This document shows, piece by piece, positions 15,782-63,701 of a stretch of DNA of 64,000 nt. Both the position numbers and the translations under genes were made by a program. The stretch covers positions 10,009,479 to 10,073,478 of the forward strand of contig NC_089278.1 of the NCBI RefSeq assembly GCF_963678975.1, given 5' to 3'. The DNA comes from Dysidea avara (lineage: Eukaryota > Porifera > Demospongiae > Dictyoceratida > Dysideidae). A model generated the notes under the pieces. The model saw only the letters and a list, made by a program, of their open reading frames with translations. It made no database searches and was not told the DNA's origin. Each line of letters begins with the position of its first letter. Positions within the stretch are counted from its first letter, which is position 1.

Positions 15782-16729
15782 TTACGAGTATACTTCAGCC
15801 AACATACACCTGACGCTACCTCCACCCAGTGTTTCTATGGTAGGAATGGGGGAATGTACAATCTTGTAGTAGTGCTCTATGAATTCCTTTTGACGGTCGG
15901 TAAGAGCATTGAATGCTGTTGATGACATACACATATGTAAATCACCTTCAATGTTGCTCACTGCAAGACAATTGCCACAGAAGTTGGCTGTCTGGTGCTC
16001 TGAGAGATGCAAAATTTGTTTGCCTGTTTCATTGAGAGTATCCAATACTTCTTTCTTGTTTTCAGTGATGCTATCCACACATATCATAGCGAACTCCCTT
16101 GTAATGGACATCATCACATTAGTATGGTAAATAGGAACACCGCAGTATTCAGCTTCAAACAAAACTGGTCTGTAGTCAAATTCCTTGCAGAAGGCATTTA
16201 GTACGTCTGGATGTGTTCGGGCCGATTTGCAAGCATAAGCAATCCTGTTGTCCCTATCCAGCACCATGCTCCCTGTGCCCTCCAAAAATTTCGACTCGTT
16301 TTCATAGTTTGTGTAGTCTACAACTTTATAGCCATATTCATTGACCAACCCTTGGATAATGTCCTTCCTTCTTTCCACTCGTCTGATTTTAGCGTACATG
16401 GGGAACAGCCCGATCCTTCCATCTTCATGAAAACTGATCCAGTTATTGGGGAATACAGCGTCTGGTTTCCTTGGGTGCTCTGTATCCTCAAATATACTTG
16501 TCTCTATCTTGTGCTGGCGTAACTTGGTAACAAGAGCGTCAAACTCTACTCTAGCCTTGCCTTCAGCTTCCTGATTTGTTACGCCGTATAGTGAGGTTTG
16601 ATACACGTTATTCTTCGCAGTCTCCGAATTTAGACTGAAACGTGCCGGCTTGATCATCAACAACTTCCGTGAGATAATCCTGGGTTCATAGTTATATCGT
16701 GTCACAAGTTTTATTAATTGCCGAGCCAT
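15782..16729 (-). CDS. CtlX-type amidinotransferase-family hydrolase (citrulline/arginine-derivative), intronless
   Basis: One uninterrupted frame of 315 aa. It matches the amidinotransferase/amidinohydrolase fold of the bacterial CtlX (citrulline utilisation hydrolase) group, related to DDAH and arginine deiminase. Likely catalytic residues are E150 in FLEGTGSMVLD, H202 in YHTNVMMS and C308 in GGGSVRCMLAE, the usual Cys-His-acid set at the guanidinium or ureido carbon; GNCLAV near 252-257 also fits. Bacterial members start near LMIKPARF, so residues 1-23 (Arg/Lys-rich, few acids) are an N-terminal extension that could be a mitochondrial presequence (inference). Every long neighbour except GPATCH2 is cut by introns, this one by none. 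The 3' end is convergent with the matrix gene. Substrate is not provable from sequence. Confidence 0.85.
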   Translation of the reverse strand: MARQLIKLVTRYNYEPRIISRKLLMIKPARFSLNSETAKNNVYQTSLYGVTNQEAEGKARVEFDALVTKLRQHKIETSIFEDTEHPRKPDAVFPNNWISFHEDGRIGLFPMYAKIRRVERRKDIIQGLVNEYGYKVVDYTNYENESKFLEGTGSMVLDRDNRIAYACKSARTHPDVLNAFCKEFDYRPVLFEAEYCGVPIYHTNVMMSITREFAMICVDSITENKKEVLDTLNETGKQILHLSEHQTANFCGNCLAVSNIEGDLHMCMSSTAFNALTDRQKEFIEHYYKIVHSPIPTIETLGGGSVRCMLAEVYS

Positions 16730-17100
16730 GGGACAGTTGGTCTTTAAAAGAAAAGCCGCTCGAGAAAAGCAATGGAACTGATGGGAGGGTAATGTGTTGG
16801 GTTGTTTATACAGTAGATCTATCGGAGCAGGTTGTACAGGCTCCCAAAGCCTGGTTTCAAGCCTGGTTTCGAGCCTGGTTTAACTAGTAATCCGGATATT
16901 AGTGTATACTACTCGTCAAACTGCCTGAACTGGCGGGTTTATCTGGTTTATCTTTATAGCGAAAGTATGACTGAGAAGTGTTATTTCGCGTTTTGAAGTG
17001 ACTTGGATATATGCAGCTAGATATAGTTCAATGGAAAACCTACTAAAAGTGTAAGAGAAATTTCTTCGACACACCTCTACCTCGCCCTCTACCTACCCAG
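16730..17100. promoter_or_regulatory. Upstream region of the CtlX-like gene
   Basis: No gene seen. It contains three imperfect copies of AGCCTGGTTTC at about 16848-16882. It should hold the promoter of the minus-strand CtlX-like gene; no element is identified with confidence. Confidence 0.35.
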
Positions 17101-26865: not shown

Positions 26866-29375
26866 TAGATATAGCTCTAACCAATTTTGATGGACTAAGC
26901 CATGTTGACACTTATACAAACCTGCCAGCGGCTAACCTGTCATCTGACCACTACATGATAATCTTTACTATTGAGCACATCACTGAAAAGCATTCACATT
27001 CAAATTCATTTGCCACAAGACTAGACTATAATCATGCTAACTGGGAAGACATGAATCAATTTCTTTATGAATATGACTTTACTTTAGCTCTATCATCGAA
27101 CAACACTGAGTTCATCTGGTCATACATTAAAACAGCCATCAACAGTTCTATAGACCTGTTCATCCCAATGGTCCCCATTAAAGACACAAATCAACCTATA
27201 GTGGTTTAATTCCACTATTCGCCACAAGATAAAATGTTTACATACACTGTAAAGGAAAAACACAACAGGCACCCTGCTAAAAACACAATGCTCAAAGTAA
27301 CTAACCTACAAGAAGAACTGCAATCAATGATTGCTGAAGCTAAATCAGAATTTGAATCCAATCTTGCACTAACCTATGCCCATACCAACAATAACAAAAT
27401 ATTTCAGTACATCTCTAGTATCAAAGGTCATGACCGTCATCCCAATCAGATGTTCTACAATAACAAGACTGAAAGCATCAACTGATTCTGAAAAAGCCCA
27501 GCTATTCAACAACTACTTCTACTCTGTATTCTCATCTAGTGACCAGCCAATAAACGACTTCGACACAACACCCAGCTCTGATGGTTCACTACATGACATT
27601 GTAATGTCTCAATCTGATGTTTTTGATATCCTTACATCCCTCGATGCAAACAAAGCAAGTGGAATTGATAACATTAGTCCCAAAATATTCAAATACTGTG
27701 CTGCACCACTGCTCCAAGTTATCTGCCACTTGTTCTCCACAAGTTTGCAGAATAACTCCATTCCACAAGAATGGCGTACTCATTGCGTGATCCCTATTTA
27801 TAAAGCTGGGGACAAGTCCTCTGTATCCAACTATCAACCCATTTCCTTACTGTGTATACTCTCCAAAGTTCTAGAAAGAATTGTTTATAACAACATCATT
27901 AGACACGTACAAGGTAAACTTACATAACTCAATTTGGATTTCTCCCAAATAGATCAACATTGCAACAACTGCTACTATTTACTGAAAAACTTCTTGAAGC
28001 CAAGTCAGAAGTATACATGGATTTCAGAAAGGCATTTGACTCAGTATCCCACAATGGCCTTCTCAATAAGCTCTACTCTATTGGAATAACAGGCAAACTA
28101 TGGAAGTGGTTTCAAGAATACCTGCTACAAAGATTTCAGTGTGTTAGAATTGCTCATTATCAACCTTCTGTAATGTCCTCTCCGGAGTTCCCCAAGGGAG
28201 TGTATTAGGACCCCTTTTGTTTGTCATATTCATTAACGACCTTCCTCAACACATTCAATCTGCATTACCCTTTGTATTTGCTGACGACACCAAATGTCTA
28301 CTGGCAATCAAATCCACAGAGGATATTGGTAAACTACAAAGCGATGTCAACAATACAGCTATGTGGAGCCACTCTACATACTTATTATTTAATGAAGCCA
28401 AATTTGTACATGTTTGTTTCTGGGTTAAACCACCCTTTGATCTGGACACCACAACTTACACAGTTAATGGAAACCCTATAAAGCGACTCCTACAACACAA
28501 GAATCTTGGTGTCATTTTCTCCTACAATCTCAATTGGACAGACCACTATAAAACTATCACTACTAAAGCATATCAGATTCTAGGCTTGATCAGACGTACA
28601 TTTAGGGTCAATTGTATAGAAGCTAAAAAGCAACTCTACATTTCCTTGGTTAGATCACAAATAATGTACTGCTCACAAATATGGAGACCTCAACTAATAA
28701 GAGATATGACTACCCTGGAACGTGTGCAGCGTACAGCTACTAAATTCATACTGAATGACTACATCTCATCTTATAAATCAAAGCTACAACAACTAAATTT
28801 ATTACCGTTAATGTACATCTATGAACTGAATGATTTAATGTTTCTGATCAAATCCTTGAACACACCAACAGACAACTTTGACATCAGAAATTTTATCTCT
28901 TTTAACACCAACAGCACTAGATCTGGAAGTCACTTAAAACTATGCCATCCAAGGACAGTATCCACCACTGATCATCATTTCTATTTCAATCAAATTGTAA
29001 GACTATGGAATCATCTACCTGTTATAAACTTATCTTACCACTTTATGTCATCAAACAAAAGCTCACTAAACATCTATGGGACCATTTTACAGTTAACTTC
29101 AACTCTGATCAATCCTGTTCATTTCATTTCTTATGTCCATGCCACCGATGCTCAAGACAACCAATCTCCACCAATTTTCTCCCTCTTTAATGACACTGAA
29201 CTACAAATTCGTAATAAGTACATAGTTACTATACATAGTTAAGTAATAAGTAATTGTAATATAATTAATGTATAGCTGTACATTTCTGGCTGTGGGCACA
29301 GGTTGCCCACAGACCTTTGATGCAGGTTCTCCTGCTTCAAAAAGCTTTACAAATAAATAAATTTTAAAAAAAATT
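26866..29375 (+). mobile_element. 5'-truncated CR1/Jockey-like LINE
   Basis: Starts in the tail of the endonuclease domain (LTNFDGLSHVDTYTNLPA, then LSSDHYMII), then a linker and the reverse transcriptase: LDANKASGIDNISPKIF, YQPISLLCILSKVLERI, YMDFRKAFDSVSHNGLL, SGVPQGSVLGPLL in the DNA at 28183-28219, and the catalytic FADDTK near 28280. The C-terminal part has LVRSQIMYCSQIWRPQ and RVQRTATKFIL. The 3' UTR ends in AAATAAATAAATTTTAAAAA (29351-29372), a LINE-type tail. Coding is split over several frames (26955-27209, 27234-27485, 27376-27927, 27960-28208, 28217-29242), so it is inactive. Confidence 0.9.
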
Positions 29376-38933: not shown

Positions 38934-40010
38934 ATTATTATTATTTAATGGGCTTGTAGATGCCAAGGCAAGCTAACTTGCCAGGCTAGGCCGCAGGCCT
39001 TTGAAGGTGCCCATATCTAGATTGCTTCCAAAAATTATCCAAGCGCAACTTGAAGGTTGCAACTGTTGGTGCTGAAATGATAAAGTCAGGTAAGGAGTTC
39101 CATAGATTGACTATTCTATTTGTAAAAAAGTTCTGCCTAACAAGTAATCTTGATCTTTCTTTAAAAAGCTTAAGAGAGTGGTCCCTGGTGGTAGCAGTAT
39201 TTAAAGTAAAAAATGTAGATGGGTCAAAGTCATAATGTCGTTTAAGTATCTTAATCATATCACCCCTTTGACGTCTGCAATACAGAGAATAGAGATCCAG
39301 AATTTCAAGACGGCTTTCATAAGTCAAGTGGGCTAATCCGCGAAGGTGTTTAGTTGCACGTCTCTGTACCTTTTCAAGGGTGTCGATGTCTCTGGCCAAG
39401 TACGGACTCCAAGATTGCACACAATATTCCAAATGCGGTCGAACATACATCTTATACAGAAATATAAACATATCAGAACATATCAGTAGAGTCAATTCTA
39501 AAAGATCGCCTAATAAGCCCAAGAACCTGTGTAGCCTTGACTGCAGCTTTTTGGCAGTGTAGAGATGGCTTGAGATCACTTGTGCACCACACTTCAAGGT
39601 CCTTCTCCTCGTTCACTAGTTCTAGGTCAGTAGATACATTTGTAGTGCCATCGTACATGGTGCATGATGCAGGAAGAGAGTTACCAATCTGCATTACTTT
39701 GCATTTGGCTGCGTTAAATCTAAGCAACCAAACACTTGACCATTGCATTAACTTGTTGATATCATGTTGTAGTTTAAGGCTGTCATGAAAAGATTTAATG
39801 ACCGAGTATATCTTGGTGTCATCTGCAAACATCTTCAAATTACTCTCAATGAGGTCAGGCACATCGTTGACATACAGTATAAATAATAAGGGACCCAAGA
39901 CTGAACCTTGAGGTACTCCACTCTGAACATTAACCCAATCTGACTGAGACCCATTAACCACTACTCTCTGAAAACGATCTGTGAGAAAATTGGTAACCAC
40001 AGGGACAAGT
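38934..40010 (-). mobile_element. LINE (reverse transcriptase C-terminal half), minus strand
   Basis: Reads from about 40010 down to the (ATT)n tail at 38934. The upper frame (40000-39473) begins in the palm: SGVPQGSVLGPLLFILYVND, then MFADDTKIY, the catalytic FADD box. The lower frame (39597-38986) has MYVRPHLEYCVQSWSPYL, VQRRATKHLRGL and the NLWNSLPDFIISAP end. The two frames overlap, so there is one frame break. Its 5'-truncated end lies only about 60 bases before the start of GPATCH2. Confidence 0.9.
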
Positions 40011-40068
40011 TTCCACGCACACCGTATGCTTCAAGTTTAGATATAAACTAATTTAATAGAATACACGA

Positions 40069-42784: not shown

Positions 42785-45700
42785 ATGTCTGGAGGCAATG
42801 CTGATTGCGTTCTAGCTCTGCCCGAAGATTACACAACCAAGTATGGTTTCCAGGTGAGTAATATCGGTGTGGTTATTATTTGTTAACGTGTGCTAAACGT
42901 ATTTCGTGCTCGTATTTGGTACACACGGTACAGGCCTGTGTTTTGCTTGAGCCAAGTAGTGGTAAGTCTGAGGTGAGAAATCTGGCGAAGCTTGATAGTC
43001 TTTTTGTGGTTATTCAATGCATTTTTATTGGTTTTGGGGTAGTAGTTTCTTTACAACCATGTGCTACAAGTTTACATACTACACTTCACTGTAACATATA
43101 CAACTACTTAACTGTAATGGTAGGTCCTATAAATCTTGGTATATTTCTACTGTTGTGTGTTTCTAAATAAAGTGCGCTGCTATATTTTGGATTTCTTTCA
43201 CAGTTTTCCCAGTTCTCGCCGATAGCAGAAGTTGAAGAGGAAGAACCTAGTGTTAATGATAAAAATCAAGATGAGCAGTGAGTTTATTTATGGTTGCTCG
43301 TTTCCAAAGTTGTATGAGATAACAAAGTTACCATACACTTGTTAAATACTGCACCTTTCCATGATGTACAGACCAATTGTCAGTGTGGTGACTTGTTAGG
43401 AGACTGGATCATTTAGAAACTGATAGCATACACAAGGGGGATAATATTACTGCAACACAGCTAACCACTTCACTATAATAGGAAGCAGTAGGTTTGAGAT
43501 GGTCATGAATATCGTAACAACTGCTTAAGATCATTAAGTGGCTTGTTTACTGAGTGAACCTGTCTGGTAATGTTATCCCAAGTGTCTAGGGGGTTAGTTT
43601 AGTTATTAACCCTTGTATAGCTCAGTCTTGTTTGTATGTGTACATTGCCTACATAGCCTACATAGTGATATGCTTGATGAGTGAAATTGTTATATGAACA
43701 CAACAAACCAAAGTTTGCCAGCAACATTCTGTTTCAACTCACCACTATGAAATTGTTTTAATTAGTGTGGATTGTGTTCACAAGAAAATTTAACCTGGCT
43801 TGTCACTATCAATCAACAAGATAGATGCTGTCAGTGCACAATTGCACATATAGTATTTTCTTGGATTCAGTCAGTTAGTGTTATTACTTTACACTGTGGG
43901 GTACTTATTGATGGCTACCTCATGAACACTTTTGTGATGTATTGGTATTGTTAATTTTACTTGTTGTCAAGGAAGATGATGTTATTAAGTGTGTCCTTTT
44001 GTAACTGCTGGTGTTTATTTTGTGCTAGGTCATTAATAGTGAAGAAGAAACAGCTGCTCTTATCTCACCAAAAGGCAAATTTGTACATTCCCTTGTCAAA
44101 GTCTCAGACACCACCCGTGAAGCACCCCAAGCCTACAGCAAAACAGCGAGAAGCTAACAGGCAACAGCAACAACAAAGACACCAACAACAACAAAATCAG
44201 CAACAACAGCAGCAGCAACAACAACAAAGTCAGCAACCCCTTTCACCAAAGTCACAAAAATCACCATTGTCACCTGTGCGATCTCCACCAGCCACTAGGC
44301 CAGTGCAACCAGTATTTCCCTTACCAGACAGACGGCCCGGAGAGGAAGGTGCCAGTCCTCCAGTTCAAGACGCTGCAGTGCATATGCAGCACTACAAAGT
44401 ACATCAATCCAGTCGGTCACCAAATAGTGGTTCACCCAATGGAAGAGCTCATATGTTGATCAGTTCACCTTCTTCGTCTGTAGAACACAGTCCAAATTCT
44501 GACAATAATTCTGGTACTTCCACCCCAATGTACAGTGAACGTAGCTCCCCATCTGGTAGCAGTTGTAACACTTCCACTGGTGTACACAACAAGTCATATG
44601 TTAGACCATCCATTGCTGTAATGCAACACTCTTATACCGCTGATCCCAGCAAGAGAGGTACTGACATTACTAAAGTGTATTCTTTTACTGAACCAATGGA
44701 TGGTATTAATCTCTCACAGTGTTCCAATAGTTCCAGAGACAGTAACTCTTCTAGTCGATCCAAACGAGAGATACGCTCGCCAGAATCTCAAAAACCTAAA
44801 TTCCCTTCCCCAGAAGGTCAGTACAGTATGGACGGACAGTTTAGGAGTACAGATATGCCAACAGCTGTTGTACGGCATCATGCTACTGGTGTACATAAGC
44901 AACGACAAAATAGAGATGAACAAGACATGTATACACGCCTTCATCCTAAGGGACTAAGTGGTTACATTTCTGATGGTGGAATGTCAGTAACTTCAAGCAT
45001 TGAAGAACTCTCGGCGATCAACCAAACCAGTGACTATACTGACCTATCTACACAACCTAATGTAGTGATAGTTAAGCCACAACCAGTGGCTGGTACTGCG
45101 TACTACCATCAAACTGGCTTCAAAGATCACATGCAGTCAACTAATGACCACAAGCAGCAATCTCGAGGTGGCATCCCCCCTCCGAATCAAGGTGTGATAT
45201 CACCACCAAACAGCAAGCAAGGAAATAGTAGTTACTCTTACCACACACAACCCCAGTTTTCCACTAAAGGCTTTCCACCCAGCCACCATGGCCAGTTTAA
45301 GCAGTCATATCCCCCTACACAAACTGTATCTGCTTCCCCACACTGGGCCACCCAAAGGCAAGGACCACCCAGCAACAACTATAGCAAACAGGGCAAACCA
45401 ATTGAGTACATCAAGACTGCTTCCCCTCCTGGTGTGAAGGAGGGAAAGGCAAGGAGCTACTTGGTAGCTGATGGGACTGATTACTCTAATGAAATGATTG
45501 TAAGTATTGTTGTTGATTTTGTAGGTATTCACATTATGTGTATGTGTGTGTTCCATGTACAGTAGCTAAATAGTTAAATCAACCATTCAGTTGTTCCCAT
45601 TGAAGGATGAAAGTGTTGTTATATAGTATTAATGATGTAATTCTCTTACTGATAGGCTGCTTATAGGGCACATGAAGCTGCAGTTAATGGTGATTTTATG

Positions 45701-47871
45701 TACCTGGTGAGCTGTGTATTGTATCATAGCAGTTTTGTTAGTTAAAAGGTATTTTTATCTTCTTAGTATCGTGTTGTGAGTTCTGGTGAGATTCCACCAA
45801 CGCTTGCTGACCACCACAAATCTACACTAATCCACAAGTCTGCACTAAATGGACACTTGAAGTGTCTATCATTTTTAGTGAAGAACAGTCATCCTGATGC
45901 CATTAATCTTCTTGATGACAACTTACTGACTCCAGTCTTGTTGTCTATCCAAGTGAGCTTGACTTGTTCTTTTGTTAAAGTAGGTCTCATTGGCTGTGTA
46001 ATATGTTCAGGGTGGACACCTTGACTGTGTACGCTGGCTGGTCGATGAAACAAATGTGGAGATGGTAGTACCTGATGCTGGTGGTGAGACCTTACTCCAC
46101 CATGCTGCATTTCACGGCAAGGTAAAGTTTAGACATTAAAATCTCCTGACTGATTTATATCCCATACACTGTTTTTGTTGTGTAGGTAAATATTCTTGAG
46201 TGGTTGATAGAGAAGATTAAGAGTCGGGGAGAACAGCTACCGGACATAGTAGACGACTCTGGTGTCACCCCAGCACATTTTGCCGCTCAACAAGGTCACT
46301 TAGATTGTTTACAAGTGAGTGAGTGTTACTGAGTAACCATGCAACCATGTTAGATTTGAGTGTTTCATTTATGTTGACTTGTATGCTTATTACAATATGC
46401 ATTGAGCCCAATAACTGTATGCTTTGTGAATTTAGAACCAGTTCATTAGGATAATTGGCGTACTAAGTGTCCCTTGTAGTCTAAGTATGTTTTTCCCTTG
46501 TGTATATTTCAGAGACCATCTGGTTTGCTTATGGGAATGATATTCACAACATGATTAATTACTATGAGCCAATATGTTAGGTGCTAGACTGGAAGTATAG
46601 GGTGTGTAGTTCAGTGATTTAATTTTATGTCACATTTGGGGTTTAGAATAATGGGGTTGTATTTCGTGTAGCTGCTTTATGATAAGGGCTGCTCACTTAC
46701 ATTCGCTGATCACGATAACCAGAGACCAATGGATTGGGCAGATGCCTCAAACCAGATGCTTTGCTCACACTACCTACTAATTGTAGAGACTTGTTGGCAG
46801 CTCTCCAATGACGTTGCTATGTTGAAACAGCAACTAATGAAGTTAGTTAAATGTGATTTGTTTTGATGTCATTTAAGAGTATCTTTCAAGGGTCCAGACT
46901 GAAAACCAGAGTCTAAAAGACATTATTGGTGGAATGGAGAAGGAGCACAACAAAAACATGAGTAAAATACAACTACAGTATGAGGCAAAGATTGAAAAAG
47001 TGAGATGCCTTGTGTAATGAGATTTGATGAGGTCACTAATTCAATGTACTAGATTCGTGAGAATTATGTCGACTTAACTGCAAAGTTGATTCAAGATGTG
47101 AAAGAGAACCAACAAGGTACTGGAAAACTACCAACATCACGAACAATGTCAGATTCCACCAAGTTAGTGGTGTGGTTAATTATTCATGAACATTTCCCTT
47201 CATGTGGTGGTTCTTATTATTTAGTGCTCACTATCATTTCCAGCAGGCTGATGTAGATAAGGCCAAAGTAAGTCATATACTTGTGTAGTAGTACTACAGA
47301 CATGTCTGCTATTCTTTTAGGTTCCAAAAGATACTGATTATGATGCCAATATTTCTGGCTTAGCACAAGAGGTGTTGAGGTACAAGCAAACAAACACGCA
47401 AACACACAAAACTAGTTGAGTACTTTGTTGTGTATAGGAAAAGACAATCAACAGTGGCACAGCGAATGCTGGAGAACCGTGAAGTCCGACGCAGGCAGCC
47501 AGTCCTTGCAGGCAGAGCATCGCCCCTCTCCCCTTCATTACATCGTATGGAACAATTTAACACAGAAGTGTGTTGTGCCATCTGTCATTATAATTTCATT
47601 TTAGTGTGTAATTTTTATATTTACAGAATGAGATGACCAAAAGCCATCAACCTCACCAAAAGTATGTTGTTTTTCAGTCACTTAGTTTGTTGATGTAACC
47701 TATTTTTGTACCTGTAGGAAGGCTGGTGGCCGGGTTGTCACTTTTGCTCCTCATGTTGAGGAATTTCCCAAGTCTCCGTCACCCAACTACACTGTAGACC
47801 ATGCCCTTCACACACTTACTGAAGAGCCACCCATACAACCAGATCAACGATATCATGAAAATACTGATTAA
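42785..47871 (+). CDS. SNCAIP: Synphilin-1 (alpha-synuclein-interacting protein) homologue
   Basis: 15 exons, 966 aa in one frame: 42785-42853, 43204-43277, 44029-45499, 45656-45706, 45767-45952, 46011-46121, 46186-46314, 46672-46841, 46891-46999, 47053-47162, 47225-47267, 47321-47379, 47438-47567, 47627-47661, 47718-47871. A disordered N-terminal half holds a polyglutamine stretch (about 87-115) and Ser/Pro-rich segments. Ankyrin repeats span about 570-735: STLIHKSALNGHLKCLSFL, GGHLDCVRWLVDET, GETLLHHAAFHGK, TPAHFAAQQGHLDCLQLL. Then comes LCSHYLLIVETCWQLS and a coiled coil (755-825). Human synphilin-1 as I recall it has GQLECVRWMVSET and LCSRYLVVVETCMSLA at the same places, and a VTFEE motif near its end; here VVTFAPHVEE. 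In vertebrates it is a cytosolic scaffold tied to synuclein, SIAH and parkin. Confidence 0.9.
44163..44236 (+). repeat. CAA/CAG polyglutamine tract in the synphilin-1 homologue
   Basis: Runs of CAA and CAG codons encode about 24 Gln with a few Arg, His, Asn and Ser breaks. CAA and CAG are mixed, which usually slows slippage. Confidence 0.95.
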
Positions 47872-48165
47872 AATAGTCATGTCTATAAATCACATTCCAA
47901 AATGTAACAAACCAAATCAAAATTGTGTACGAATCGTAATTACCTGCATAAGTTATATCGATACTGTACTCCTCAGCACGACAATTATACGCATGCGCGT
48001 TCCACAAGGGCGTGTCACTTGCTGCACCGGCTTGGGTGTGTCAGTTAACACGGCTGCTGCTTTTTTGAGAAGCAGGTATGTTCATCAGCGAACTCATATA
48101 ACATGATTTCATTATAGCTGTTTTCGTGTAGGCGTTGAGTGATCAATCCACACCTTGAAGCCGAA

Positions 48166-51100
48166 ATGGCGAAAAATCCGCCCCTGAAGAGGACTCAGAG
48201 CAGTGCTAGCTCACTTAACATCGAAGGATACTATAACTGTTCACGAGAAGAAGCTAAGGAGCTTTTCCAGCCATTCATACTTCTAGATGGCATGTACCTG
48301 GTTAGGCCAAGCGAAGCTCAGAGCTCGAACATTTTATACACCATGAGTATCACGTGAGTTTATGCGTTAGAAAACTTTGCTATAGTTAAATTGTGGTTGT
48401 AGGAAAGAACGAAAAGTGTACAATTATCGTATACAACAGGATCCCAAAACAAAACAATATTTTGTACAAGAAACAGACAAATTTGCTGATGTACCAAGCC
48501 TGATCAAAGCCTATAAAGAGAAGCCAATTAATCCCAAACTGAATGTCATACTAGTAGCTCCACTTGTGCAGGGAAAAAAGCGAAAGCAAAATTCACAGGC
48601 CTTTCTGGCTAACTTCAATAAGGGACATCAGCAGCAACAAGACTTTGAGGAATTGCCTGGGATGCATCAGTACTTGCCTAGATCTGAGGTAGCTAAATGA
48701 TGTATGTGAACCAGTTCCTGATCTTATTTTTTTTGCAGATTAAACATGTGATGGCAGGATACATGAATAGGCCAGGTACTTTCTTGCTTAGGCCAAGTTT
48801 GACTTCTGAGGGCAGTCTTACTTTAACAGTTGTGTAAGTACTAAGCTATACTAACTGGTAATAATGTAATGTAAATATCTTCATATAGGCATAAATATGA
48901 ACTTCTAAATTTTAAAATTACACAAGATCCTAATACAAGAGAAGTGTGTGTTGCAGCAAAGAAGTTTACAAATTTTAATGAACTATTAGAATTTTATAAA
49001 TATAATCCACTAAAGATAAAAAGTCGTCCAAATGAAAATATTTTGTTAACGTTTCCACTACCAGTTGACAAGAGCTTGGAAAATGTACACAAATCAGCAC
49101 AAGAGGAGTTGTATGCAGAACTATCTGGTAAGAGCTTAATACAAGTTTTTTTTCTCAGCACCATAACTAACTGAGTACCTGCAGTTATTGTTGCATTCAT
49201 CTATAGGTACTGTTGAATGTGTTGTTGCTATATAGTTACTAAAGGAAATGATATTTATTTTGTAGGTGTCCAGCCTTTACCACCAGATTGGACTGAACAT
49301 TATGATGATAGCTACAAAAGAAATTATTATTACAACAACAAGACAAGGGAAACAAGTTGGACAAAGCCAGTTCCTGGGCCACCCAAACTGCCAGCTAGAC
49401 CACCTGTGTCTCCCACAAGCTCAGTTGGTGCACCCAGTTTGCCACCTGCTAGAAAGCCTATCTCTCAATCTGTATCAGCACCTATTATAGCACCACCACG
49501 AAGCCGTGCATCACTAGCTGAGATTCCAAAAACAGATTTACCACCCACTGGAGATATGGATGCAGACTCGGAATATATTGCAGTTGGTGATATACCAGCC
49601 TCCCAATATAAACCAAACAAATTAAAACAACCAGATTTTGAGGAAGAGGACGAGTATATATTGGTGGGATCACTACCTCCTGTACCAGAAGACAGCGTTC
49701 TTTCTGATAACACTACAAAACTATCAAGAGCAACTTCTGCTCCAGTTACTGGAGTAAAAAGGATGAGTGTAATTAAAGCAAATAAAGATACCATGAAAGA
49801 AGAAAAAGAATTGTTGAAACAACAGAAACTGGATGAGAAAAACAAACTAAAACGGGAGAAAGAAGAAAAGAAAGAAGCTGCTAAAAAATCAAAGGAAGAG
49901 GCAAAAAGGCTAAAAGGTGAAGAAGCAAAAAAGAAAAAAGAGGAAGCTAAAAGATTAAAGGAAGAGGCAAAACAGCAAAAGGAAGAAGAAAAGAAAAGAA
50001 TCAAGGAAGAGAAGCAAAGGAAGAAGAGTGGAGCTCAATCACCAGGTCCAGAAAGTGTAACGTTGGAGAGTGCACCATCGTCATCACAGACAATGCCCGC
50101 TTCTATGAAACCTGGTCCCCCATCTCCACCTCCTTGTGTTGACCTAGGGGAGCAACCAAGTGCATCCCTTAGTTCTGGTCCTCCATCACCACCACCTCGT
50201 GTTGACCTAGAACCAGCTGAAGAAACTAAGCAAAGAGCTTCAACTATGTCGGGTCCCCCAGCTCCTCCACCACGCGTTGATCTTTTCCCTGAAGAAGACA
50301 AACCAAAAGCATTAACTATGGGTGGTCCTCCTGCTCCACCACCTCGTGTTGATCTTGAACCCCAAACAAATTCTGGTCCCCTTGCCCCACCATCACATGT
50401 TGATCTTGAACCTCAGACTAAAGCATCTGGACCCCCACCGGCACCCCCACCTCCACCGCTGTCTGAAACAGCCCTAAAAGCAGCTGCAAACACAAAGAGT
50501 AGTCAGCAGGTTGAAAAAGATAGAAAAGCTGCTGAAAAGAAAAGGAAACAAGAAGAAGAGCGCTTAAAGGAAGAAGCAGCAAAGAGAGAGAAAGAAGAAG
50601 CAAAAAGACAGAAAGAAGAACAGAAGAGAGAAAGGAAAATGAGCAAATCCCTTTCTAAGACCAGTACTACAACCTCTACTAGTGATGTTCCTACTACTGA
50701 TGTACCAGCTGCTACTACTGCTCCACCACCTCCTCCAGCTGGTAATGTACCAGCCCCTCCCCTACCTCCTCCAATCAGTGGTAATGAAACATCTGCTAGT
50801 AATGTTCCTTCTCCTTCCAGTACCACTCCAAGTCAACCAATACTGCCACCACAAACTACATCTATGCCACAAGTAGCTCCTACAACATCATCTGCTCCAG
50901 TTTCACCATCACCCCCTCCTGTGGCTCCTATCACACCACCAGCTGCACCACCAGCTGCACCACCACCCCCACCCGTGTCACCTATATCACCTGCTACTGC
51001 ACCAGCTGCCCCACCACCACCTCCTTTATCTCCTCCACCTCCACCTGTCTCATCTCCTACCTCTCCAACCTCACCATCATCTAGAGGATTTTCTGCAGAA

Positions 51101-51301
51101 GACCTTATGGCCGGCCGTAACAAGCTTACAATGGCAGCAGCTCCTATAGAGAAAGCCCCACAGAAAGCAGCAGGTTTGGGAGGCATAATGCAAAGTGCTT
51201 TTGATCAGTTTAATGATAAAATTGGTGCAATGCGATCATTTGTTGAATATTCTGATGATGAAGACTTTGAGGATATTGAAGAAGATGAAGACTGGGATTA
51301 A
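48166..51301 (+). CDS. SH2-SH2-WW-proline-rich-WH2/C/A protein: predicted phosphotyrosine-linked Arp2/3 activator (copy A)
   Basis: Five exons: 48166-48353, 48403-48688, 48739-48833, 48889-49127, 49266-51301 (947 aa). SH2-1 (22-120) has the phosphate-binding Arg R47 in GMYLVRPS; SH2-2 (150-255) has R176 in GTFLLRPS. A WW domain follows (273-305; W278, W301, P304). Two similar tyrosine motifs come next (SEYIAVGDIP, Y373; DEYILVGSLP, Y400). Then a Lys/Glu-rich coiled coil (445-525), about six GPPxPPPRVDL repeats, a second Lys/Glu helix, and polyproline for profilin or SH3 partners. The tail has a WH2-like segment (SAEDLMAGRNKLT, about 879), an amphipathic helix (IMQSAFDQFNDKIGAMRSF) and an acidic end (VEYSDDEDFEDIEEDEDWD). 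The last two parts resemble the WAVE central and acidic regions (VEYSD..., acidic, near-terminal Trp). Predicted role: cytosolic, coupling tyrosine phosphorylation to branched actin. The function is inferred. Confidence 0.93.
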
Positions 51302-51548
51302 CACTACTGCAAACTTTAATACTGAACTATAATAGTCATGTAAGTTAAGTGTCTTTTGTATAGAGAGTCGTTTATTGCATAAACTTCTATTTCTGGTTAA
51401 AGATAATAGGTATTACTGACTAGTCTGGCGCTGCCCGCCCGTTAATCTATCGGGTACATAATAAAAAGAATCACGTAGTTAAAATTAGGCGCCTAATATT
51501 ATGTGCGCTTAAAATTAAAAAGTGGGCGTAGCTACACGAATTGCAACT
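51302..51548. promoter_or_regulatory. Spacer between the two SH2 genes, with a TAGTCTGG repeat end
   Basis: About 250 bases. CTAGTCTGGCGCTGCCCGCCCG at 51420-51441 is a single end of the TAGTCTGG MITE family, with no partner arm seen. The promoter of copy B must be here or inside copy A. Confidence 0.5.
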
Positions 51549-53399
51549 ATGTCTGACGCTGGTGCAAAGAAAGCTAGCCTAGCTAGATCTCTCAACTTTG
51601 AAGGTTATTACAACTGTTCTAGAGAGGAAGCAAAAGAACTATTCAGACCTTTTGTGTTTTTTGATGGTATGTACCTAGTTAGACCAAGCGAGTCCAAGGG
51701 AGCCTTGTATACTCTCAGTGTAACGTAAGTATCGTAGATCTATAAACCAAGACATTTCTTTCAGCTCTTTCTTGTAGAAAAGACGAAGTTGTGTACAACT
51801 ACAGAATTCAACAGGACACCAAAGTAAACCAATTTTCTCTAAACGAACACGACAAATTCCCGACTATTGATGCTTTAATTCAAGGCCACAAGGACAAGCC
51901 AATCAACAGTCAACTCGACATCAAACTAATAGCTCCAGTAGTACAGGGGAAGAGAAGGAAGCAAAACTCGGATGGGTTTATTAACAACTATAATAAAAGA
52001 CAGGAGGGATATGGCACTATACCAGGCCTGCATTGCTTTCTACCTAGATCTGAGGTAACTGCACATTGATTAATAATTAAACACTGCACCAACTATTTAA
52101 ACTATAGCCACCACATAAAGTATAAGAGTCCTTCATTCAGTTGAATACGTAAACAAAACAAATCGTATTGCAGAACATTTCTAAGTGATGTGTTATACTG
52201 TGTTGATGACACTAGGTAAAGAAAGCCATGCAACCCTACAAAAGTATGAGTGGAGCATTTTTGGTACGACCAAGCTCTACAGATGAAGGAAGTCTCACCT
52301 TGAGTATTGTGTAAGTATATTTTGTATGAAGTACTACAAATCAACTCAGTTTCCTTTCAGGCACAATGGCACTATCCTCAACTTCAAATCTATTCAAGAT
52401 CCAGAAACAAGGGAGGTATTCATTGCTTCCAAGTCATTTTCAAGCCTAGAAGAAATGCTTGATTATTATACTAAACATTCACTCAAAGCTCGTGGTCGTG
52501 AAGCAGAGAAAATATTATTGAGATATCCTATTCCAGTTGACAAGAAGTTGGAGATGATTCACAGAATGGCACAAGATGAATTGTACACTACACTAGCTGG
52601 AAAGCTGCCTGCTGCAAAGCCTGCTCCACCGTCACCTTCAACTAAGCCAAGTCTTAAAAAGCTGAGTGTACAAATGGCAAATGAAGATGAATCAATTAGC
52701 AAAGAGAACGTTAAACGTCAAGAGACCACCTCAGTGACAGTTAACCCTCCCAAAGATAATTCTGCAGAGAACTTATTAGATCAAGCCTTACAACAACTTG
52801 AAAATTTTAAAGATGAGCTTAACACAGAAATAGCTACATTGTCTTCTGGTGCAACCCACCATGATGTTCCCAGTGTGCCATCTGAAGAAGTGGTAGTTGA
52901 AAAACCTGTATCTCCTCCTCCTGACAAAGTCACCACAATATCACCTCCAAAAGAAGCTGAATCACTACCAGCTACAATTCCCAGTGAAATTGTCAAACCA
53001 CCTGCTGCAAGTGAATCCATCACTCCTCCCTCAAGTGAACAAGTAGTGGCATCAACCACCAACAAAGGAGATGTAACAACAACCACATCACCTGTGCAAA
53101 AATCTAAGACAGCTCCTCCCCCAGCACCGCCACCCCTCCCTCCCATAGCTGAACCAACAGCAGCCAGCACACTTGTAGGATCAAAGATTCCGCCCACAAC
53201 TCCTGGAAGCGTTTCCTCTGAACATCTACTAGAAATGCAACAGAAATTGAAGAAGACACTGCCTAGAGATACGAGCCTTAGCAAGTCAGGTGGGGCTATG
53301 CATGATATATTTGCTCAGTTTAATGACAAGATCAGTTTAATGCGATCCATGGTAGAACACTCTGACGATGAGGATTACGAAGAGTTAGAATGGGACTAA
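51549..53399 (+). CDS. SH2-SH2-proline-rich-WH2/C/A protein: predicted phosphotyrosine-linked Arp2/3 activator (copy B)
   Basis: Four exons: 51549-51724, 51778-52054, 52216-52310, 52361-53399 (528 aa). Same plan as copy A but shorter: SH2-1 (20-116; R45 in GMYLVRPS), SH2-2 (145-250; R169 in GAFLVRPS), a helical segment (LLDQALQQLENFKDELN), a Pro/Ser/Thr-rich linker with TAPPPAPPPLPPI, then a WH2-like motif (SSEHLLEMQQKLKKTLPRD, 468-486), a central amphipathic helix (MHDIFAQFNDKISLMRSM, 496-513) and an acidic tail ending DDEDYEELEWD with the near-terminal Trp (W527). LLEMQQKLKKT is a better WH2 match than copy A's. No WW domain and no Lys/Glu coiled coil. Introns 1-3 have the same positions and phases as copy A, so the two arose by tandem duplication. 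Confidence 0.93.
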
Positions 53400-53454
53400 T
53401 ACACAAACACATTGCAGACATTTTATATTACATTTTAATACATTGTAGTGTTTC

Positions 53455-54818
53455 TTAAACTTTGTGTACTGCGAGTGTGATATCTCCATGAGATTTCATA
53501 AGTATATTGCTACATAAGAAAGAGACTCTAACACCAAGACATTACAAAGTAGGCTTACCCTGTGTCTAGTTCAATAGTTACAACTGGTTGATCATCAGGT
53601 GCCTTTCCATGTTTTAGTTCTTGTGCTTTACTCACTAATTCTTTGACTACACCAGCAGCTGATGGCTGTAGTGTGCCATGAGCTACACATGGTAACAATA
53701 GCACAATACTAAAAAAGTGTGTATACTACAAATTAAGTAGCAACTCTGCATGCGTGGGTGTATGTGTGAATTAGTACTAAAATTGTCAAGTACTAATATA
53801 ACTATCCTGTGTTTACAGTCGTCTCTTCATTACAATATAGCATCAACTACTATAAGCATTAAAGATATAACTCAAACGTGTATGTAGCTAAGGTCACTTC
53901 ACATGGATAGATTGAGTGAGCGTCTTTGCCAAATGGTTTGCTGATGGCACCAGTATTAAAAGTTCTTATGAATAAATAACCCATCACAGAGTCATCATAC
54001 AATAACGCATTGCAACCTCAAAATTGATCACTTGACCTTGTGACAGGAGATTGGTCACACGTCATTAAACATCTTGTGATCTCAAAGAAAAGTTAATAAT
54101 CCCATTCAACTCTGACACCTCAGTTTTGACTAGTCTGGTGCCAACACCCATTCGAAAAAAGGAAGGGTCTGGTGAAATACAAATATCAAATCATTTCAAA
54201 AGGAATTCAATTAGACAGTGTATGTAACTGCTTGTTACATCAGATGATTGCCCTTCAATTTGAACAAAAACATTGCATTGCCAAGGCGATTTCTGTGTGA
54301 ATGTAATTGGCACACATTAATTGGCTACTACTGAATCTGGATGGTAGAAATGATTTAGTATCTGTATTTCACCTACTTTTAAGGGGTGGGTGGTGCCAGA
54401 CTATGGAGCATTCTAGTGTACAAATTGATACTGACAAGTGACAGTTCCTAGAGCCCTTCTTGCAGATACCAACATTACTTTTGCATGCTAAGAAACAACA
54501 CTACTACATTGTGTGAATGTGAAAAAATTAAGACTTGATACTAACGATACCAATATCAACCACCATGTTTGGTTGTGTAATCACATGTACGTAGCAATAC
54601 GTCATAAGGCTATCCGATTAATGATATATATCACATATCTACAACACCCTACACAATACTAACCAGAAACACACAGTCCCTGGTCGTCTGCACATAATGC
54701 CCCTATGATACCAGGCTGGGCCATTCTGTAATGAAGAACACGCACGCATCTTTTAAATTGTTACACCATAAAAAAACACTCACATATCTTCCATCTGGTT
54801 TTCAACGGCTATCTCCAT
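53455..54818 (-). CDS. LAMTOR5: LAMTOR5 (Ragulator subunit, HBXIP)
   Basis: Four exons, 54818-54784, 54725-54664, 53682-53559 and 53509-53455, encode 91 aa in one frame, the same length as the human protein. It reads MEIAVENQMED, GIIGALCADDQGLCVSAHG, SAAGVVKELVSKAQEL, PVVTIELDTGNILMK, then GDITLAVHKV. It is a roadblock-type protein; human LAMTOR5 has GTLSDEHAGV and GITVAVHKMAS at matching places. LAMTOR5 is part of the pentameric Ragulator that anchors Rag GTPases and mTORC1 on lysosomes. Intron 2 carries a MITE at 54131-54403. Confidence 0.94.
54131..54403. mobile_element. TAGTCTGG-family MITE in LAMTOR5 intron 2
   Basis: TAGTCTGGTGCCAACACCCATTC at the left and AAGGGGTGGGTGGTGCCAGACTA at the right end form terminal inverted repeats. 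The 9-base flanks do not match, so this copy is older or altered. Confidence 0.7.

Positions 54819-54976: not shown

Positions 54977-60032
<5,056 letters not shown>

Positions 60033-60290: not shown

Positions 60291-63701
<3,411 letters not shown>

Follow-up and report, generated by a model that had tools for sequence, protein, structure and literature searches.

Two adjoining plus-strand genes, here called A and B, together span exactly positions 48166–53399 of a 64,000-nucleotide window of Dysidea avara DNA (contig NC_089278.1, positions 10,009,479–10,073,478 of the forward strand; all positions given are those of the window). Each encodes a protein with two N-terminal SH2 domains and, at the other end, a tail made up of a predicted helix and an acidic stretch with Trp close to the terminus, and in copy A this tail resembles the connector-acidic (CA) part of WASP/WAVE proteins. 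An earlier sequence-only reading of the locus had proposed the pair as a new class of Arp2/3 activator; the analysis below concerns how much of that proposal the genes can carry.

Gene models and SH2 domains

The reading frames of both genes open once GT-AG introns are spliced out by hand, and the spliced frames span the interval that had been assigned to two neighbouring genes (Table 1). All three introns of copy B have the same phases as the first three introns of copy A. It had been left in doubt whether the SH2 and tail exons belong together. In copy B, the last exon is stop-free from within the second SH2 domain (residue 184) through the terminal WD; because half of SH2-2 and the entire tail share this one exon, joining them needs no splice, and for this copy the doubt is largely settled. 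In copy A, the tail and a WW domain both lie in exon 5, downstream of and apart from the SH2 pair in exons 1–4. The stretch between the genes holds AATAAA at 51460 and ATTAAA at 51514, and neither hexamer was found in 53399–53700, after gene B.

Table 1. Coordinates of genes A and B and of the features along their predicted proteins
Feature	Position	Strand	Residues and content	Basis
Gene A	48166..51301	+	947 aa; SH2-SH2-WW-charged/proline-rich-tail	Spliced open frame, GT-AG introns
Gene A exons (5)	48166-48353, 48403-48688, 48739-48833, 48889-49127, 49266-51301	+		
Gene A SH2-1	48223..48574	+	20-120, intron inside; YLVRPS	Pfam SH2, limits by eye; 64% identity to copy B
Gene A SH2-2	48665..48997	+	151-226, introns inside; FLLRPS	Pfam SH2, best stretch 151-226
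Gene A WW domain	49277..49369	+	274-304	Pfam WW, 8.6e-10
Gene A WH2-like candidate	51083..51136	+	876-893; RGFSAEDLMAGRNKLTMA	Helix in AlphaFold2 model; WH2 unsupported
Gene A connector-like helix	51173..51241	+	906-928; GLGGIMQSAFDQFNDKIGAMRSF	AlphaFold2 helix, block pLDDT 78-80; 13/21 identical to copy B
Gene A acidic end	51242..51298	+	929-947; VEYSDDEDFEDIEEDEDWD; net charge -13 over 19 residues	
Gene B	51549..53399	+	528 aa; SH2-SH2-linker-tail	Spliced open frame, GT-AG introns
Gene B exons (4)	51549-51724, 51778-52054, 52216-52310, 52361-53399	+		
Gene B SH2-1	51600..51952	+	18-117, intron inside; YLVRPS	Pfam SH2, limits by eye
Gene B SH2-2	52037..52469	+	146-219, introns inside; FLVRPS	Pfam SH2, best stretch 146-219; PDB matches E from 7e-10
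Gene B WH2-like candidate	53223..53258	+	471-482; HLLEMQQKLKKT	LKKT present; helix half of WH2 pattern absent
Gene B connector-like helix	53289..53351	+	493-513; GGAMHDIFAQFNDKISLMRSM	Helix predicted by alignment to copy A
Gene B acidic end	53352..53396	+	514-528; VEHSDDEDYEELEWD; net charge -9 over 15 residues	

Pfam SH2 matched two stretches in each protein (7.6e-23 for copy A and 4.3e-26 for copy B), and the phosphate-binding Arg of the FLVR motif is kept in all four domains, which bears out the earlier description of two SH2 domains per gene with this Arg intact. A search of copy B against the PDB returned 127 sequences at E ≤ 0.001; the best 60 of these were mostly SHP2, then PLC-gamma1, RASA1 and SYK on SH2-2 and ZAP-70 on SH2-1, and two PLC-gamma1 chains covered both domains. 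The Pfam SH2_2 entry matched copy B weakly (1.7e-3, 18.2 bits against a cut-off of 27) and was not listed for copy A. An AlphaFold2 model of the SH2 pair, built from a two-sequence alignment, was weak (mean predicted local distance difference test score, pLDDT, 44), and its order of helices and strands was SH2-like. By domain match and FLVR Arg, both proteins are of the phosphotyrosine type and are predicted to bind phosphotyrosine ligands.

The WW domain of copy A follows directly after the SH2 pair and was absent from the earlier account; Pfam WW found no match in copy B. SH2-SH2-WW is itself an unusual domain order.

The C-terminal helix and acidic end are conserved between the copies

The C-terminal peptides quoted in the sequence-only reading are all present in the translations (FDQFNDKIGAMRSF, FAQFNDKISLMRSM, VEYSD/VEHSD, EEDEDWD and DYEELEWD). 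Both acidic ends carry Trp as the second residue from the terminus. For tail A, AlphaFold2 (two-sequence alignment headed by A; mean pLDDT 63.5) placed a helix at tail residues 12–25, a loose linker, a second helix at 39–65 that takes in VEYSD and a disordered acidic end. In this model the helix-linker-helix-acidic order is the order expected of the WH2-connector-acidic (V-C-A) region.

Constraint was estimated by pairwise comparison of A and B only (two sequences). The proportion of synonymous differences (pS) is 0.85 in SH2-1, 0.78 in SH2-2 and 0.92 in the helix-plus-acidic (C+A) block; the likeness of the two copies is not recent, because synonymous sites are near saturation. In the C+A block, 24 of 36 aligned residues are identical (67%), with a nonsynonymous divergence (dN) of 0.23 and a proportion of nonsynonymous differences (pN) of 0.19 versus pS 0.92. 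The corresponding figures are 68/106 (64%; dN 0.24) for SH2-1, 65/124 (dN 0.38) for SH2-2 including the ELY stretch and 7/28 (dN 0.78) for the WH2-like stretch together with the spacer after it; the linker is hardly alignable (57/192, with 422 gap positions). The estimated constraint on the C+A block is as strong as that on SH2-1, and by this comparison its conservation is beyond chance. Because dN is low despite saturated pS, the helix-acidic block appears to behave as a functional unit in both copies; the WH2-like stretch shows no comparable constraint.

Resemblance of the tails to the WASP/WAVE connector-acidic region

The tails were searched against 177,635 distinct PDB sequences at E ≤ 10. 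All three matches of tail A (79 aa) were N-WASP C-termini (E 0.094, 0.12 and 0.18). The alignments are ungapped and extend as far as the last residue but one of the chain, and in them the connector-like helix falls on the N-WASP C region. Three block-shuffled versions of tail A found no N-WASP (two matched nothing and one an amylase at E 1.3). No PDB match of either tail attains conventional significance.

Pairwise comparisons of the CA part with reference CA sequences, 2000 block shuffles each, were favourable in five of ten cases, a count uncorrected for the ten comparisons. For copy A, the real score was reached by 10 shuffles against N-WASP, 40 against WAVE1 and 45 against WAVE2, and for copy B by 10 against WAVE1 and 85 against WAVE2. 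When the helix alone was shuffled, the A/N-WASP score was reached by 23/2000 and the other nine by 483 to 2000. A profile-profile comparison with five CA sequences gave probabilities of 79.8% and 73.5% in two runs, and permutations did as well in 0/300 whole and 3/300 block trials. The VE[YH]SD junction between helix and acidic part, which had been likened to the C-terminus of WAVE, is indeed WAVE-like in both copies, the WAVE sequence used being a hand-entered one. Pfam is uninformative here, because even the CA fragment of N-WASP matches none of its WASP-type entries; a scan of NCBIfam gave nothing meaningful.

A number of observations weigh against a true connector-acidic tail. Trimmed to the 44 residues of its CA part, tail A still had an N-WASP chimera first, at an E of only 0.98; another such chimera (E 9.4) ranked below Cas9 and Sup35 chains, and the remaining N-WASP chain was no longer matched. 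Tail B matched no WASP protein in the PDB; the 11 sequences that it did match, all at E ≥ 0.2, were of Rad50, the elongation factor TFIIS and a splicing factor, and the 40-residue end of tail B matched only gp41-5 (E 1.2). A profile of the A and B tails found only two chitinase sequences in the PDB (E 1.7 and 1.8) and no WASP protein. Block shuffles were unremarkable for copy A against WASP (545/2000) and WHAMM (573/2000) and for copy B against N-WASP (638), WASP (594) and WHAMM (855). To these are added the uncorrected comparisons and the make-up of the reference set, in which the CA sequences other than N-WASP (four of the five in the profile) were entered by hand rather than from a database record. 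The profile score also survived shuffling of the helix only (120/300 as good), so the resemblance lies in the acidic end, which starts with VE[YH]SD.

The helix itself gives further reason for caution. Section 11 of a WASP-family survey (PMC3298513) describes the C domain as three large hydrophobic residues spaced by three, then an Arg/Lys doublet or triplet and a hydrophobic residue. As encoded by us, this pattern was matched by all three hand-entered controls (N-WASP, WAVE1 and WHAMM) and, with its basic doublet, by neither tail, also when aromatic residues were allowed. The conserved helix thus differs from the published pattern and looks only loosely C-like. In mammalian WASP-family proteins, the acidic Trp is described as third from the end (PMC7112243), whereas it is second from the end in A and B. 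The helix had been called amphipathic: helix formation is predicted for tail A, whereas the hydrophobic moments are not significant, with shuffles as high in 10% (A) and 17% (B) of cases. Moments of the hand-entered N-WASP and WAVE1 helices were likewise not separable from shuffles.

The WH2-like stretches

A WH2-like motif had been claimed for both tails, and this was not borne out. Pfam WH2 gave no match at E ≤ 10 in the full proteins or tails of A and B, while hand-entered N-WASP and WAVE1 fragments scored 5.3e-19 and 1.2e-8. The consensus that section 11 of PMC3298513 draws from 1080 WH2 sequences was found in neither tail, whole or as its helix half; as encoded, the whole form recovers one of the two N-WASP WH2 motifs and the helix half recovers both. 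In copy B, the hydrophobic pair sits nearer to LKKT than in N-WASP. The tail of copy A has no LKKT/V, and the sole LKRT of this protein is at residue 7. The comparison proposed for the tails, with WH2 and CA families together, therefore has a divided outcome: the profile and pattern tests for WH2 are both negative, and a CA match is marginal, for copy A only.

Linker and tyrosine motifs

Copy A has a charged stretch, 12 runs of at least three prolines and four PxxPx[RK] motifs. Residues 549–651 (50102–50410) form five tandem GPP[SA]PPPxVDL-type repeats, the last degenerate, which yield three PxxPxR class II SH3-type motifs; the fourth motif is PKLPAR at residue 309. A scan of copy B for the same features found three proline runs, no such repeat and no PxxPx[RK]. 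In both copies a YxxL motif stands immediately after SH2-2 (A 265 and B 258). Copy A also has YIAV (373) and YILV (400), and copy B has YEEL (522) within the acidic tail; these tyrosines could serve as phosphorylation sites.

Neighbouring genes

The window holds several other genes and gene fragments. Upstream of gene A, on the plus strand, lies a gene (44000–47872), part of which encodes poly-Gln and is rich in proline, and whose later, short exons look by eye to encode ankyrin-type repeats; 491 aa of its product, entered with a wrong first residue, had no Pfam match at E ≤ 0.001. Downstream, 57472–57855 (Pfam 6PF2K, 6.2e-21) and 62365–62700 (similar by eye only) are probably tandem copies of the 6-phosphofructo-2-kinase/bisphosphatase type. 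A G-patch protein gene is also among the neighbours. Neighbours of these kinds, with the DDAH and reverse transcriptase described next, and the shortness of the introns point to an animal. The open frame for dimethylarginine dimethylaminohydrolase (DDAH; Pfam 2.1e-96) lies on the minus strand at 15782–16879, and fragments of reverse transcriptase of the long interspersed nuclear element (LINE) type occur on both strands at 27373–29242 and 38986–40030 (RVT_1 4.3e-9 for 28148–29242; the remaining fragments by eye).

Discussion

The data support, in two copies, an SH2 protein whose tail is CA-like and may bind Arp2/3. We tentatively favour, at somewhat less than an even chance, the reading that A and B arose by tandem duplication and serve as phosphotyrosine adaptors in which an SH2 pair is combined with a CA-like tail that binds Arp2/3. 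The two N-terminal SH2 domains would attach to tyrosine motifs that are doubly phosphorylated, and the tail, in which a helix of amphipathic type leads into an acidic end with a Trp, would bind Arp2/3. Wherever receptors or scaffolds are phosphorylated, Arp2/3 would gather through this docking, and branching could be promoted or tuned. The proline stretches of copy A might also gather profilin-actin and SH3 partners. A working WH2 motif forms no part of this proposal.

Of the earlier "new class of Arp2/3 activator", the SH2 pair joined to a conserved helix-acidic-Trp tail stands, and the predicted architecture, an SH2 pair with a CA-like tail, appears to be a new one for SH2 proteins. The activator class goes further than the evidence, the WH2 motif being unsupported and the CA match marginal. 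Without a supported WH2 motif, the direct branching of actin is no more than a hypothesis. The bolder form of the idea, which we consider doubtful, is a one-chain, phosphotyrosine-docked nucleation-promoting factor for Arp2/3, whose WAVE/N-WASP-like tail would be brought to doubly phosphorylated receptors with no need of Nck or Rho GTPases in between, and which would have been duplicated as a long form with WW domain and SH3 ligands (A) and a short form (B). Activator, competitor and stabiliser would all fit the tail, as would a tail for another partner.

The best surviving alternative, although unlikely, is that the tail has nothing to do with Arp2/3. It might serve as another linear motif, for example a kinesin light-chain W-acidic motif, or fold back as a lid over the basic SH2 pockets of its own chain, perhaps under the control of the Tyr in DYEEL. 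The W-acidic motif has the form L-[ED]-W-[DE], and the LEWD end of copy B resembles it. Acidic ends are common, the helix is not significantly CA-like at profile level, and neither tail B nor the A+B profile found a WASP protein; but copy A lacks the W-acidic Leu (EDEDWD), its junction reads VEYSDxED, its matches at E ≤ 10 were to N-WASP only, and its shuffled acidic tails failed to reproduce them.

It is improbable that the tail binds Arp2/3 as a competitor or branch stabiliser, in the manner of Arpin or cortactin, in which case branching at phosphotyrosine sites would be damped or stabilised by SH2 docking. A CA-like acidic end with WH2 absent by test is what this alternative would predict, but the conserved helix ahead of the acidic end suggests a connector-type contact, Arpin is not known to have a comparable conserved helix ahead of its own acidic end, and no cortactin-type repeat was among the Pfam matches. 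Equally hard to credit is a full WH2-C-A activator in which a WH2 of divergent sequence (B, HLLEMQQKLKKT; A, AEDLMAGRNKLTM) hands actin to CA-bound Arp2/3: copy B has LKKT, a 14-residue helix is predicted in copy A at the right place ahead of the loose linker and the order of elements is like VCA, but the Pfam and pattern tests given above were silent, LKKT/V is missing from the tail of copy A and the candidate stretch is poorly conserved between the copies.

Comparison with known systems

The WASP family, defined by a WH2-connector-acidic domain (PMC7112243), comprises WASP/N-WASP, WAVE/SCAR, WASH, WHAMM/JMY and WHIMP, with WAML and WAWH proposed. A and B have in common with it a long proline-containing middle, a C-terminal helix and an acidic end with a near-terminal Trp, together with the VEYSD junction of WAVE and the gap-free alignment of tail A to N-WASP. 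They differ in that a WH2 is unsupported, the helix lacks the basic doublet and the Trp is penultimate, and their N-terminus is a tandem SH2 (plus WW in A). The predicted proteins fall outside the family in its strict sense, WH2 and the C-domain pattern being absent and the acidic Trp end present. The Figure 1 legend of the WHIMP paper (PMC7112243) names no SH2 among its domains, and the term "SH2" occurs 0 times in the main text of that paper and in that of the family survey (PMC3298513). No published protein combining SH2 with WH2 or CA was found in titles and abstract openings among the papers listed, a weak test in which the slash of "Arp2/3" probably defeated matching. Searches of virus, bacterial, archaeal and phage sequence collections gave no relatives, which is uninformative on the eukaryotic distribution. 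SPT6 likewise has a tandem SH2, one pocket of which lacks the arginine (PMC3507883; the pocket is that of the second SH2 in our reading), whereas all four SH2 domains of A and B keep it.

The tandem-SH2 signalling proteins SHP2, ZAP-70/SYK, PLC-gamma and RASA1 have, like A and B, two phosphotyrosine-type SH2 domains with the FLVR Arg; A and B have no kinase, phosphatase or lipase domain in Pfam, and a CA-like C-terminus instead.

In the job proposed for A and B, linking phosphotyrosine to Arp2/3, the counterpart is Nck. In animals, the known routes from tyrosine kinases to the branching of actin are relays by way of Nck, GTPases and the WAVE complex, and Nck is an SH2-SH3 adaptor that relays phosphotyrosine to N-WASP and is not known to carry an Arp2/3-binding tail. 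In A and B recruiter and tail belong to one chain. If the favoured reading is right, a phosphotyrosine reader and an Arp2/3-binding tail in a single protein would be a direct shortcut past these relays, and would illustrate how phosphotyrosine and actin modules can combine.

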